DNA from: Flavobacteriaceae bacterium
GTDB lineage: Bacteria; Bacteroidota; Bacteroidia; Flavobacteriales; Flavobacteriaceae
DNA: 60,998 nucleotides
NCBI GenBank assembly: GCA_002698745.1
Contig: PAAD01000005.1
Coordinates: 1 to 60,998, forward strand
Direction of reading: 5' to 3'
Under the pieces are notes generated by a model. That model saw only the letters and a list, made by a program, of their open reading frames with translations, searched no databases and was not told the DNA's origin. The first letter of the stretch is position 1, and each line of letters opens with the position of its first letter. The position numbers and the translations under genes are program-made. Below, in pieces: positions 8,640 to 49,547 of the stretch.

Positions 8640-9017
8640 TTAACGCTGCATGTTTTTTGCCTCAATACTTAATGTAGCATGTGGAACGAGCTTTAACCGT
8701 TCCGAGCTGATCAATTTTCCTGTTACACGGCAAACACCATAGGTTTTGTTTTCAATGCGGATTAATGCGTTTTTTAAATCTCGTATAAACTTTTCTTGTC
8801 TGATTGCAAGCTGAGTATTAGCCTCTTTTGACATGGTTTCTGATCCCTCCTCAAATGCTTTAAAAGTGGGAGATGTGTCATCAGTTCCATTGTTGCCGTC
8901 ATTCATGTACGTACTCCTTATAAGTTCCAAGTCTTTTTGAGCCTTGGCAATTTTTTCTTCAATAATTGTTTTAAAGTCTTGTAACACTTCGTCGCTGTAA
9001 CTGTTAGATTTTTCCAT
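8640..9017 (-). CDS. TraR/DksA-family regulator with degenerate zinc finger
   Basis: 125 residues: an N-terminal helical pair (coiled-coil-like, about 10-90) followed by the DksA C-terminal motif region YGVCRVTGKLISSERL...PHATLSIEAK. Only Cys96 remains of the four zinc-binding cysteines; the others are Thr, His/Ala and Glu/Ala-type residues. I believe this form is common in Bacteroidota, so it is probably a lineage variant and not a decaying gene. DksA relatives bind RNA polymerase through the secondary channel. Whether this one does cannot be told from sequence. Sits between ileS (10 bp gap) and lspA (3 bp gap), hence cotranscribed. Confidence 0.85.
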   Translation of the reverse strand: MEKSNSYSDEVLQDFKTIIEEKIAKAQKDLELIRSTYMNDGNNGTDDTSPTFKAFEEGSETMSKEANTQLAIRQEKFIRDLKNALIRIENKTYGVCRVTGKLISSERLKLVPHATLSIEAKNMQR

Positions 9018-43863: not shown

Positions 43864-45051
43864 TTACGCCAACATAGCGGCAATACCAGGCAGTGTTTTC
43901 CCTTCCAAGCTTTCTAACATGGCCCCTCCGCCAGTAGAAACATAACTAACCTTGTTTTCCATTTTAAATTGCTTCACTGCTGCAACCGAGTCTCCTCCGC
44001 CAACAAGTGAAAAAGCTCCTGTTTTGGTTTGTTCCGCAATGCTAGCTCCCAAAGCACGAGTTCCTTTGGAAAAGTTTTCAAACTCAAAAACACCCAAAGG
44101 ACCATTCCACAAAATAGTTTTGGACTGTTTTACAACAGCGTCAAATTGAGCTTCTGAAAGTGGGCCCGCGTCCATGCCTTCCATATCGTTAGGAATTTGA
44201 TCAATAGGAAATACTTGCTGAGGAGTGTCGTTTGAAAAGTCTTGGCCCGCACGTACATCTAATGGCAAGTGTACTTGCACACCTTTTCTTTTTGCTTGTT
44301 CAAGAATAGATAGCGCTAGTGGAATTTTGTCATCTTCACATATAGATTTCCCAATTTTGCCTCCTTGAGCTTTAATAAAGGTAAAGGCCATACCTCCTCC
44401 AATAATAAGGTGATCAACCTTTGAAAGTATGTTTTCGATTACGGTGATTTTAGAAGACACCTTTGCACCACCCAAAATGGCCAAGACTGGCTTTTCGCCA
44501 GACTCCATTACTTTATCAATAGCCGTTATTTCTCCAGCCAGCAAATGACCAAAACATTTCTTCTTTGGAAAAAACTCTGCAACCGCTGTAGTTGAAGCGT
44601 GTGGCCGATGCGCAGTGCCAAATGCGTCGTTTACATAAACTGTCCCTAGCTCAGAAAGGGCTTTTGAAAAGTCCTTATCTCCTTTTGTTTCACCTCCATG
44701 AAATCGTAAGTTTTCAATTAATAGTACCTCGCCTTGAGCCAGTGCTACTGCTTGAGCTGAAGCCTTTGCCCCAACAACTTCGTCACAAAAGTGTATGGCT
44801 TTGCCAAGATGTTTTTCAAGTGTAGGTACTATATGCTTAAGACTTAGTTTAGTATCATTTCCTTTGGGTCTTCCTAGGTGAGACATCAGCACACAACTCC
44901 CTCCTTGCTCCAGTATATATTGAATGGTGGGCAGCGCGGCAACGATTCTTGTGTCGTCTGTTACATTGCCGTTGTCGTCTAGCGGAACATTGAAGTCTAC
45001 GCGTATCAAGGCGCGTTCATGACTAAAAGAAATGTTTTGTAGGGTGTTCAT
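43864..45051 (-). CDS. pgk: phosphoglycerate kinase
   Basis: ATP-forming step of glycolysis between 1,3-bisphosphoglycerate and 3-phosphoglycerate. 395 residues: RVDFNVPLDD at 17-26, SHLGRPKG, GGAKVSSKI, NGPLGVFE and GGGDSVAA, all canonical. ATG at 45051 chosen over an upstream in-frame start because it gives MNTLQNISF and lies just after the promoter box. Confidence 0.97.
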   Translation of the reverse strand: MNTLQNISFSHERALIRVDFNVPLDDNGNVTDDTRIVAALPTIQYILEQGGSCVLMSHLGRPKGNDTKLSLKHIVPTLEKHLGKAIHFCDEVVGAKASAQAVALAQGEVLLIENLRFHGGETKGDKDFSKALSELGTVYVNDAFGTAHRPHASTTAVAEFFPKKKCFGHLLAGEITAIDKVMESGEKPVLAILGGAKVSSKITVIENILSKVDHLIIGGGMAFTFIKAQGGKIGKSICEDDKIPLALSILEQAKRKGVQVHLPLDVRAGQDFSNDTPQQVFPIDQIPNDMEGMDAGPLSEAQFDAVVKQSKTILWNGPLGVFEFENFSKGTRALGASIAEQTKTGAFSLVGGGDSVAAVKQFKMENKVSYVSTGGGAMLESLEGKTLPGIAAMLA

Positions 45052-46381: not shown

Positions 46382-46407
46382 AAAAAAGCCCCTTAAATGG
46401 CTTTATT
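46382..46407. terminator. bidirectional intrinsic terminator between holB and the methyltransferase gene
   Basis: Inverted repeat AAAGCC (46385-46390) and GGCTTT (46399-46404) with an 8 bp loop. It is flanked by an A-run on the left and a T-rich run on the right, so it can act for both convergent genes. The right arm overlaps the stop codon of the leftward gene. Confidence 0.55.
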
Positions 46408-47236
46408 TTGGCTTTTGAAGAAAAAAAGTGAGTGATGAGGTGTTTGTAGTTCGCCAGCCCTTAAAATTTGCGTACAAGCCTTTATAAAATGCTTTAATCC
46501 ACGGCGCTTTGGCATTTCGATATTGTTCGGAAAGCATCGATATATAAAAAGCGTCCCAATACATGTTTTTCGTTTTAAATAATTCAAAGCCTGCTTTGCG
46601 TACAAGAAGCGAGATGGCTTGTTTGTTGTAGTGCCAGCGGTGGCGGGGCACGTCATAGGCGGCCCAAAATGATTTGTAATGTTTAGCGTCCCACGAGGCG
46701 CAGTTGGGTACAGCCAAAACCAATATTCCTCCGGGCTTAAGGGATTTATAAAACGACGCCAACGCTTCAACGGGCTTATTTATGTGTTCGAAGACATGCC
46801 ACAGTGTTATAACATCAAATTGGTTTTCTTTTAGCGGCATGGAAGCCGTACTAAGCTGTCTATGTTTGAGGGTTTCTGTTGCGCTTGGGGAGGATTCATA
46901 AACACAAACCCGCCAACCTTCTTGTTGGGCGGCAAGGGCAAAGTCCCCGTTGCCTGCGCCGTAATCTAATATTTGGCCTTTGGTCGCATATTGATGAATC
47001 CAGTTGAGTTTTGATTTGATATTACGCCGCTTGACCCATGCATAAATCTTAGACTTAAAACTATTGGCTTGGGTTTCGTGTGACGCATATCCTGTTTTGG
47101 GATAATATTTTTCAAGTTCCACACCGCTGAGTTCGGGAATAGTTTTTAAAGCCATGGTTTCCTTGTCCAAGACTAAATCAAAGCTAGACTTGCTTACGAG
47201 GTGATCGATAACGGCAAATGGTTTCACGTGGAACAA
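46403..47236 (-). CDS. class I SAM-dependent methyltransferase
   Basis: About 277 residues. SAM motif I is ILDYGAGNGDFAL near 89-101, motif II CVYESSPSA and post-motif ITLWHVFEHINKP, followed by LKPGGILVLAVPN. This is the ubiquinone/menaquinone-like or sugar-type methyltransferase fold, with no recognisable substrate. No ATG is near the N-terminus. The start is either TTG at 47236 or GTG at 47227, both inside the parS-like palindrome, immediately after mnmG. I could not decide between them. Confidence 0.82.
   Translation of the reverse strand: MFHVKPFAVIDHLVSKSSFDLVLDKETMALKTIPELSGVELEKYYPKTGYASHETQANSFKSKIYAWVKRRNIKSKLNWIHQYATKGQILDYGAGNGDFALAAQQEGWRVCVYESSPSATETLKHRQLSTASMPLKENQFDVITLWHVFEHINKPVEALASFYKSLKPGGILVLAVPNCASWDAKHYKSFWAAYDVPRHRWHYNKQAISLLVRKAGFELFKTKNMYWDAFYISMLSEQYRNAKAPWIKAFYKGLYANFKGWRTTNTSSLTFFLQKPK
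47220..47235. other. parS-like ParB-binding palindrome (15/16)
   Basis: GGTTTCACGTGGAACA matches the bacterial parS consensus TGTTTCACGTGGAACA at 15 of 16 positions, differing only at the first base. It covers the start codon region of the methyltransferase gene and follows the mnmG stop. See the perfect copy at 49123-49138. Confidence 0.72.
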
Positions 47237-49108
47237 TTAACGGCCCATATACACCAACAACACAGACAAATCACTAGGCGATACACCGCTAATGCGTGAG
47301 GCTTGTGCTATGGTTACGGGTTGGATTTTATTGAGTTTCTGTCGCGCTTCTATAGATAAGGATTTTACCTTCTCATAGTCAAAACCCTTAGGGATCTTCA
47401 CGTGCTCTAAAGAAGAGAGTTTGTCTGCTTGCAGTTTTTCCTTGGCAATATAACCTGAGTATTTAACTTGGATTTCAACGTGCTCTAAAGTAGCGGTGTC
47501 AATGGCTTCTTTAGCCACAAATTCACTAACATTGTTGAGCGTGAGAAAGTCTGCGATTGTTAGATTTGGACGGGCCAACAACTTTCGCATTTTTAGAGAT
47601 TGCTTTACGGGGCTAGAGTCCTTGTCCATCAGAATTGGGTTAATATCTTCGGGCACTACGCTTGTTTTTTCAAAGAATCGCAACAAAGCCGAGGTCTTTT
47701 GTGATTTTGTTTCTAACAGGCGCATTCGCTTGTCAGAAGCAAGGCCCATATCGTGAGATCTGGGGGTAAGGCGAAGATCTGCGTTATCTTGTCTTAACAA
47801 GGTGCGGTATTCTGCCCTTGATGTAAACATTCGATACGGTTCTTCAGTGCCTTTGGTTATAAGGTCGTCAATTAATACCCCGATATAAGCCTCTTCGCGA
47901 CTGAGAATAAAAGATTCTTTTTGTGCGACATGGTTGTGGGCGTTAATTCCAGCCATGATACCTTGTGAAGCTGCTTCTTCATAGCCTGTAGTGCCGTTGA
48001 TTTGCCCCGCAAAAAATAAGCCTGAGACAAGCTTGGTCTCCAAGCTGTGTTTGAGTTGCGTGGGTTGGAAAAAATCATATTCTATGGCATAACCCGGCCT
48101 AAAAAACTTTACCTTTTCAAAGCCGGCAACAGCAGATAGTGCCTTAAACTGAACTTCTTCTGGAAGCGATGTCGAGAAGCCATTTACATAAACCTCTACG
48201 GTATCCCAGCCCTCTGGCTCAACAAACAATTGATGCCTGTCTTTTTCGGCAAAACGGTTGATTTTATCCTCTACCGAAGGGCAGTAGCGTGGGCCTATGC
48301 TTTTAATTCGCCCATTGAACATGGGGGATCGATCAAATCCTTCCCTAAGTAAGTCGTGGACAACAGGGCTAGTATATGTCATATGACAAGACCGCTGTGT
48401 TTTAAGTGTGTAGCTATCGTCAAGATATGAAAATTTAGAAGGGTTAATGTCGCCTGGCTGCTCTATCATCTTGCTGTAATCCAAAGATCTTCCATCAACC
48501 CGGGGTGGAGTGCCTGTTTTCATACGGCCAGATGTAAAGCCTCTTTCTATTAATCGTTCGGTCAAGCCAAACGAAGCACTTTCGCCAGCGCGACCGCCTC
48601 CAAATTGTTTCTCACCAATATGGATAAGGCCATTAAGAAAAGTGCCGCTTGTTAGTACCACAGACTTCGCTTTGATTTCAATGCCTAATGAGGTAACAAC
48701 TCCTGCAATGCTATCCTTTTTAAAGAGCAGGTCTGAGACCATCTCTTGGTAAAAATCAAGGTTTTCTGTACGTTCTAATTTATTGCGCCAGTGCTGTGCG
48801 AACATCATCCGATCAGATTGAACGCGTGGGCTCCACATGGCGGGGCCTTTAGATCGGTTGAGCATCTTGAACTGTATTGCCGACGAGTCAGAAATAATTC
48901 CACTATAACCGCCAAGGGCATCTATTTCTCTAACAATCTGTCCTTTCGCAATACCCCCCATAGCTGGGTTGCAAGACATTTGGCCAATGTTTTGGAGGTT
49001 CATGGTGACAAGCAAGGTATTACTGCCCATATTGGCTGCGGCTGCGGCTGCCTCTGCGCCTGCGTGACCGCCTCCAACTACAATTACGTCATAAATATCA
49101 CTAAACAT
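47237..49108 (-). CDS. mnmG: tRNA U34 carboxymethylaminomethyl-modifying enzyme MnmG (GidA)
   Basis: FAD enzyme that with MnmE modifies wobble uridine 34. 623 residues: FAD motif GGGHAGAEAA at 12-21, NPAMGGIAKGQIVREIDALGG near 46-66, KTGTPPRVDGRSLDY and FFAGQINGTTGYEEAA. C-terminal helical domain ends ASRISGVSPSDLSVLLVY. Often close to the origin in bacteria. Start overlaps ybeY by 8 bp. Confidence 0.96.
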   Translation of the reverse strand: MFSDIYDVIVVGGGHAGAEAAAAAANMGSNTLLVTMNLQNIGQMSCNPAMGGIAKGQIVREIDALGGYSGIISDSSAIQFKMLNRSKGPAMWSPRVQSDRMMFAQHWRNKLERTENLDFYQEMVSDLLFKKDSIAGVVTSLGIEIKAKSVVLTSGTFLNGLIHIGEKQFGGGRAGESASFGLTERLIERGFTSGRMKTGTPPRVDGRSLDYSKMIEQPGDINPSKFSYLDDSYTLKTQRSCHMTYTSPVVHDLLREGFDRSPMFNGRIKSIGPRYCPSVEDKINRFAEKDRHQLFVEPEGWDTVEVYVNGFSTSLPEEVQFKALSAVAGFEKVKFFRPGYAIEYDFFQPTQLKHSLETKLVSGLFFAGQINGTTGYEEAASQGIMAGINAHNHVAQKESFILSREEAYIGVLIDDLITKGTEEPYRMFTSRAEYRTLLRQDNADLRLTPRSHDMGLASDKRMRLLETKSQKTSALLRFFEKTSVVPEDINPILMDKDSSPVKQSLKMRKLLARPNLTIADFLTLNNVSEFVAKEAIDTATLEHVEIQVKYSGYIAKEKLQADKLSSLEHVKIPKGFDYEKVKSLSIEARQKLNKIQPVTIAQASRISGVSPSDLSVLLVYMGR

Positions 49109-49547
49109 TGATTTTCTTGTTTTGTTCCACGTGAAACAATTTTATACAGGCTTGCTCTGCCCGCCGCATGTCTGCTATTTGAGATTCTGTTTTGTCCTGG
49201 AAGCCCAAACAATGTAAGAATCCATGAGACATAACACGAAGCAGCTCTTCATCAAAAGAAACATCAAATTTAGCTGCATTTTCGCGGACACGCGTTACTG
49301 ATATAGCAATGTTAGCAACAATGTCTTTGCCAACGGTGTCGTCAAACGTGATAATGTCTGTTAACGTATTGTGATTCAGGTATTTAAGGTTTAATTTCAG
49401 TAAGGCTTCATCGTCCATAAAGGCATAAACAAGCGTAAGAGCCGTTGCATTATGCAGGTTTGCACAGCCTGTAAGCCAGTTGACAAACATTTGTTCATCA
49501 ACAAGCACGAAATCTGTTTGGTATGTAAAATCCACCGAAGTATTCAT
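49101..49547 (-). CDS. ybeY: endoribonuclease YbeY (rRNA maturation)
   Basis: 148 residues from the ATG at 49547. The metal motif reads SHGFLHCLGFQDK: His108 and His112 are kept, but the third His of the usual HxxxHxxxxxH is Asp118. I believe this is the Bacteroidota form. The DDEALLKLNLKYLNHNTLTDIITF block is typical. A longer upstream reading overlaps gltX on the other strand and is rejected. The 3' end encodes LFHVEQ across a perfect parS site. Confidence 0.9.
   Translation of the reverse strand: MNTSVDFTYQTDFVLVDEQMFVNWLTGCANLHNATALTLVYAFMDDEALLKLNLKYLNHNTLTDIITFDDTVGKDIVANIAISVTRVRENAAKFDVSFDEELLRVMSHGFLHCLGFQDKTESQIADMRRAEQACIKLFHVEQNKKINV
49123..49138. other. perfect parS ParB-binding palindrome
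   Basis: TGTTCCACGTGAAACA is identical to the canonical Bacillus-type parS 16-mer. It lies inside the 3' coding end of ybeY, 15 bp upstream of the mnmG start. With the 15/16 copy at 47220 it brackets mnmG at about 1.9 kb spacing. Confidence 0.85.

Follow-up and report, generated by a model that had tools for sequence, protein, structure and literature searches.

Predicted parS sites on both sides of mnmG in a flavobacterium and its relatives

In other bacteria, chromosome segregation by ParABS systems is well established: ParB nucleates at parS, closes into a cytidine triphosphate (CTP)-dependent clamp and spreads, ParA drives movement, and structural maintenance of chromosomes (SMC) complexes are loaded. 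Here, we analyze two parS-like palindromes that flank mnmG (gidA) in a 60,998-nucleotide (nt) stretch from a Flavobacteriaceae bacterium (GenBank assembly GCA_002698745.1, contig PAAD01000005.1; hereafter, the window). We conclude that these two 16-mers are very probably genuine chromosomal parS sites and thus the predicted centromere of this flavobacterium. They have in common with the chromosomal parS sites of ParABS systems (Bacillus subtilis Spo0J, Caulobacter and Pseudomonas ParB) a 16-bp motif, few clustered copies, and a ParB with R173 and G201. Chromosomal parS sites most often lie near the replication origin (PMC7333895). Here, by comparison, they flank mnmG, far from parAB and, in 13 single-contig Flavobacteriales genomes, far from dnaA too, although such genes are the usual neighbors of parS. 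To our knowledge, Escherichia coli has no chromosomal ParABS. Its oriC lies beside gidA/mnmG (PMC4446571), and mnmG probably lies near the origin in most of the relatives studied here too; what differs is that parS sites mark the mnmG locus here. Noc and the Noc-binding site form a related protein family and site (PMC7383237). Among the titles listed in the open-licence PMC literature, we recognized no account of parS sites flanking mnmG, and none was a chromosomal ParB study in a flavobacterium. The element is of a known kind, in an unusually position-locked arrangement.

Two palindromes and a matching ParB

The window is the whole of one contig (C26) in a draft genome of 1.49 Mb (65 contigs, 77% complete). 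On its minus strand, ybeY, mnmG, and a class I methyltransferase gene follow one another consecutively:

49101..49547, minus strand: ybeY (Pfam YbeY; NCBIfam TIGR00043, 74.5 bits, cut-off 45), its 3′ end overlapping site 1
49123..49138, minus strand: predicted parS site 1, 5′ of mnmG, an exact 16-mer within the last ybeY codons (LFHVEQ)
47237..49108, minus strand: mnmG (gidA) (Pfam GIDA, 7e-160; NCBIfam TIGR00136, 836.7 bits, cut-off 524.85)
47220..47235, minus strand: predicted parS site 2, 3′ of mnmG, where the methyltransferase frame begins; 1 mismatch
46403..47227 (candidate GTG start), minus strand: class I S-adenosylmethionine (SAM) methyltransferase (Pfam Methyltransf_23, 3.8e-27)

A sequence-only reading of this stretch had proposed two parS-like palindromes flanking mnmG and overlapping the ends of its neighbors, and both were recovered when the 16-mer was matched to the window. 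Site 1, 15–30 nt upstream of the mnmG start, has 0 mismatches on the plus strand and 2 on the minus strand, the 16-mer being symmetric at 14 of 16 positions. Read on the minus strand, it runs TTG TTT CAC GTG GAA CAA in the ybeY frame, and frame and codons agree with the LFHVEQ that had been claimed for a perfect copy. Site 2, matched on the minus strand, lies 2–17 nt after the mnmG stop and encodes LFHVKP, with two candidate methyltransferase starts: GTG at 47227–47225, within the site, and TTG at 47236–47234. The proposed 15/16 match and its peptide therefore stand; the proposed overlap with the methyltransferase start codon is not conserved in relatives. With up to 3 mismatches allowed, the window contained 5 matches against a shuffled mean of 0.51, and none of 100 shuffles reached 5. 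The sole match away from the mnmG sites, at position 8721, had 3 mismatches.

The parAB genes, correctly said to be outside the window, were located on contig C31, where a ParB gene (E 1.6e-33) has ParA adjacent to it. This ParB also matched solved ParB/Spo0J structures (7bnk, 6.4e-50; 1vz0, 3.4e-48). We compared 26 ParB proteins, the window genome's own (L004) included, using Caulobacter-equivalent numbering set by motif spacing, not by structure alignment; the search motif required Q162, G170-K171, and R204, so that only positions 173, 178, 179, 184, and 201 are free observations. Positions 173, 178, and 201 were R, N, and G in 26/26, and the CTP-site motif was present in 24/26. Position 184 was K or R in the 25 relatives' proteins and N in that of the window genome. 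According to published work, R173 and G201 are conserved features of ParB that are altered in Noc, and residue 184 is permissive when K (PMC7383237). A Noc-binding site was considered and rejected: its recognition calls for a protein with Q173 and R201, as in Noc, whereas all 26 proteins here have R173 and G201, and the Noc model TIGR04285 scored 228.9 on the window genome's ParB, under its cut-off of 315. The genome thus combines the 16-bp palindromic motif, few copies clustered in one chromosome region (in the 77%-complete draft and in the Flavobacteriales genomes), and a ParB with the specificity residues of the parS type (R173, N178, G201).

Copies were not scattered around the draft genome. 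At up to 2 mismatches, one copy was found beyond the window pair, with 1 mismatch, at the end of contig C50. Because the reversed control on the whole draft equally gave 1 match, this third copy may be chance, or it may be a further parS; the draft being only 77% complete, further copies could be missing. The C50 copy (L003 59–74) lies at the contig end ∼140 nt upstream of a gene that, from its translation, we take to be UbiA-like.

Conservation beside mnmG and the encoded peptides

We fetched 80 relatives on MnmG similarity alone, and the choice of sample was therefore independent of the sites. At up to 2 mismatches, a site lay within 400 nt before mnmG in 78/80, within 600 nt after it in 80/80, and on both sides in 78/80; both sides were occupied in 69 relatives at up to 1 mismatch and by exact copies in 40. 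The nearest upstream site was 21–142 nt ahead of the mnmG start in all 78 relatives having one, and the nearest downstream site was within 150 nt of the gene in 79/80. Across these loci, 194 of the 218 sites at up to 2 mismatches adjoined mnmG, and the reversed control at the same threshold gave 1 match in 895 kb and none near mnmG.

So regular a distance before the mnmG start would also suit operators, that is, palindromes serving a transcription regulator of mnmG (ParB or another protein) and not centromere sites, and Pseudomonas aeruginosa ParB bound at two intergenic parS sites does repress the adjacent genes (PMC7022226). We nevertheless hold this explanation to be improbable: a site also follows mnmG in every one of the 80 relatives at up to 2 mismatches, the copies in some Flavobacterium loci form arrays with as many as 12 members, and the ParB residues fit the motif. 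As parS sites, the palindromes could still have a regulatory side effect; by analogy with the repression of neighboring genes in P. aeruginosa (PMC7022226), an effect of ParB on mnmG expression is possible.

Some loci depart from a simple pair. Arrays of 4–12 parS-like sites (≤2 mismatches) precede mnmG in L031 (3812–4938), L032 (4525–4883), L039 (4841–4971), and L042 (4624–4941); in the L031 array, some copies with a changed center lie ∼117 nt apart, resembling an expansion of parS-containing repeats. The Tenacibaculum loci L043 (2119), L049 (2098), and L059 (2079) have in common a 2-mismatch copy with a changed center, ∼2.9 kb before mnmG. The records behind L039 and L050 are titled Limnohabitans and Chitinophaga; their mnmG is 71–73% identical to the window's, and they are possibly mislabeled metagenome-assembled genomes.

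A second alternative is a coding constraint, with the 16-mer preserved by a need for the peptides LFHVEQ in ybeY and (M/L)FHVKP in the methyltransferase. We examined it in 81 loci, counting the window together with the 80 relatives. The closest upstream site to mnmG was in ybeY phase 1 in 29 loci and in another phase in 1, came after the ybeY stop in 47, and was unassigned or absent in 4. In favor of a coding constraint, FH(V/M)(E/K) occurred near the ybeY end in 43 of 78 loci whose ybeY frame could be read (every copy counted). However, the other 35 loci lack the peptide, and all of them except L079 keep the upstream site. Where the peptide is present, its codons fit the motif in 43/43 cases (35 exact and 8 with one mismatch); no relative was found to keep the peptide without the palindrome, a pattern that the sequence-only reading had named as refuting it. 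As far as the data reach, its other two refuting outcomes, widely scattered copies and a genome lacking ParB, did not appear either. In the 29 phase-1 loci, the synonymous choices made had a mean probability of 0.0175 given codon use in the same locus. This test took only loci in which the motif had been found, whereas the 43-locus test started from the peptide; moreover, the loci are related and not independent, which counts against reading much into a joint codon probability, as this overstates the evidence. In the window, the YbeY domain match stops at residue 183 of an open frame of 196 residues. The downstream site fell within the methyltransferase open frame in 22/81 loci and after an ATG in 5 of those; the suggested influence of ParB on mnmG transcription and on the methyltransferase translation start thus gained no direct support. 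Because loci keep the site without the peptide, coding constraint as the sole cause is refuted, and we regard it as highly implausible. Selection acts on the site at the DNA level, and the coding overlaps in the window are real but optional across the group.

Distribution across Flavobacteriales and beyond

The exact site was present in 72 of 146 Flavobacteriales genomes, including 28 of the 31 from the family to which the window's genome belongs (itself counted) and 29/29 in family f4, and the reversed control had 0 matches in all 146. In a draw across the phylum, 87 of 118 genomes had the exact site, and the reversed control matched in 1. Chance recurrence, for which the shortness of the motif and the possibly fortuitous C50 copy might speak, is refuted for the pair by these near-empty controls and by the lack of any control match near mnmG in the 80 loci, and we give it essentially no credence.

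We then selected 25 genomes; most had sites and long contigs, and three (G025, G052, and G056) had no exact site. At up to 1 mismatch, 24 of them had a site and 22 had sites on both sides of mnmG; nine sites lay >2 kb from mnmG against 5 control matches, with three sites at the G016 contig start left uncounted. In the phylum draw, 29 loci were newly cut (ten from Flavobacteriales, ten from family f27, and nine from other families of the class), and mnmG was beside the site in 26, including seven of the nine from other families.

Several exceptions count against a strict bracketing of mnmG. Among the 80 relatives, L079 has no upstream site, so bracketing is not universal; L082 is a second relative without one, on a contig that begins inside mnmG. 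At up to 1 mismatch, G025 has the upstream site only and G052 is without a site; in G027, an upstream site is accompanied by two copies that lie inside mnmG or at its 3′ end. In three of the 29 phylum loci, including one at a contig end, mnmG was not seen within 1.5 kb, and L250 has one site inside mnmG.

Of the 74 Flavobacteriales genomes without an exact site, 30 belong to family f14 and measure 300–600 kb. The f14 genomes tested (12/12) had neither ParB nor sites at up to 1 mismatch. From the 44 remaining genomes, 14 were tested; all 14 keep ParB and 12 have a 1-mismatch site, although one of them, G039, had more control matches than sites. We set aside the joint loss of ParB and parS as support, since the f14 genomes have the appearance of reduced symbionts, and dnaA, gidA, and parA are all reported missing from a Blattabacterium genome (PMC2768785). 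In family f9, all five genomes searched (G009, G021, G029, G035, and G040) lack an exact site but have one site each whose central base is changed, possibly a shift of the motif in that lineage.

Replication origin and proposed function

In two flavobacterial genomes, Ori-Finder and GC skew have placed the origin at or beside mnmG (PMC11278836, PMC12843772); the text of PMC11278836 gives mnmG as oriC and leuB as ter, and a figure legend reverses this, with mnmG as ter. In 12 gut bacteria, the majority of parS sites are reported to lie in clusters at the origin, which is not always at dnaA; these origins were called from parS clusters and skew together, with read coverage in support (PMC10197239). 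Across the 13 single-contig Flavobacteriales genomes, dnaA was 0.72–1.91 Mb and ParB 0.70–1.55 Mb from mnmG (circular distances, with the position of ParB taken from the best ParB_N match, in a frame of ∼300 amino acids). A second, weaker ParB_N match lay nearer mnmG in G075 (∼0.28 Mb), G098 (∼0.44 Mb), and G118 (∼0.48 Mb), in frames of 336, 616, and 602 amino acids, respectively. Several of the complete genomes examined begin at dnaA.

Skew was sampled in 10 of the 13 genomes, and the fits are limited by the denser sampling around mnmG and dnaA. From 30 kb to 35% of the genome away, orientation-averaged third-position skew was negative in 38/46 samples to the left of mnmG and positive in 41/47 to the right. 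The best-fit skew origin fell within 200 kb of mnmG in 9/10 genomes with third-position skew and in 8/10 with raw skew. Skew thus usually, although not always, places the origin near mnmG in these relatives. Some results weigh on the other side: the raw-skew origin adjoins dnaA in G025 and, in G075, is 0.8–1.6 Mb from mnmG; in G066, third-position skew gives a best fit 141–391 kb from mnmG; and in the window itself third-position skew corrected for gene direction keeps its sign near mnmG. Raw skew in the window rises from roughly −0.05 to +0.03 close to 45 kb, with the raw G−C minimum at 44911; this minimum may reflect gene direction only, and we dropped it as an origin signal because the corrected skew shows no sign change. 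For the same reason, the position of the origin in the window organism rests on the relatives.

Family f27 offers a more distant comparison. These are green sulfur bacteria: the FMO bacteriochlorophyll protein was present in 7/7 f27 genomes tested. MnmG is only 49–54% identical there. In 10/10 f27 loci, each a 3-kb stretch showing one side of mnmG only, the site center was ∼8–9 nt before the extrapolated first mnmG codon or 15–36 nt after the last. Among the f27 genomes listed, 13/24 had two exact sites 1.90–1.91 kb apart, the spacing expected for a pair flanking mnmG. In all three single-contig f27 genomes, dnaA was ∼7–8.5 kb from the pair (one distance counted across the contig ends) and ParB 366–404 kb away. 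These three genomes and the Flavobacteriales together suggest that the parS–mnmG arrangement is old and was once near dnaA.

For the window organism, we infer ParB binding, spreading, segregation, and the origin position from these comparisons. ParB, encoded beside ParA elsewhere in the genome, would bind at each site and, closing as a CTP-dependent sliding clamp, spread along neighboring DNA, mnmG included. Subsequent movement of the ParB-coated region to the daughter cells would be the work of ParA; where SMC is present, ParB would load it. The sites would flank mnmG because the gene lies in the group's replication-origin region, and they would have stayed there while parAB, and dnaA in Flavobacteriales, came to lie far away. 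The coding overlaps would be a by-product, with the DNA motif selected and FHVEQ and FHVKP merely what it encodes. We also entertain, as a speculation that we rate as rather unlikely, that the bracketing is itself functional: a two-site centromere would have mnmG as a conserved transcribed spacer over which clamps loaded from the two sides are trapped, with mnmG transcription tuning clamp density or ParB coating coupling mnmG expression to origin segregation. On this speculation, the arrangement would go back to the shared ancestor of Bacteroidota and green sulfur bacteria and would label the origin even in genomes whose dnaA has moved away. A fixed parS–mnmG–parS order would provide a sequence landmark for the centromere, and probably for the origin, across a large group in which dnaA misleads, and would ease the design of chromosome-segregation experiments in Flavobacteriales. 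It also raises the question of what has held the sites at a single tRNA-modification gene, with parAB and dnaA located elsewhere.

DnaA boxes in the window numbered 20 at up to 1 mismatch against 18.55 expected and formed no cluster; therefore, no oriC could be pinned in the window. Across 69 relatives' loci of at least 11 kb and 140 stretches of 20 kb, clusters scoring at least 5 were confined to five Chryseobacterium-type loci and one stretch of G017. The G017 cluster (L182 2562–2963), the only one to reach this score in its 20 stretches, lies 2.7–3.1 kb past the downstream site, and the skew fit is 65–195 kb away despite this cluster near mnmG. In seven Chryseobacterium-type loci, chosen after the first scan, the best DnaA-box cluster starts 2.3–4.5 kb past mnmG, and five of the seven (L072, L076, L078, L080, and L084) score at least 5, compared with 0/60 resamples of one locus. 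The DnaA-box cluster and an AT-rich stretch a few kilobases past mnmG form a candidate oriC in Chryseobacterium-type genomes, next to a gene that is presumably rpiB.

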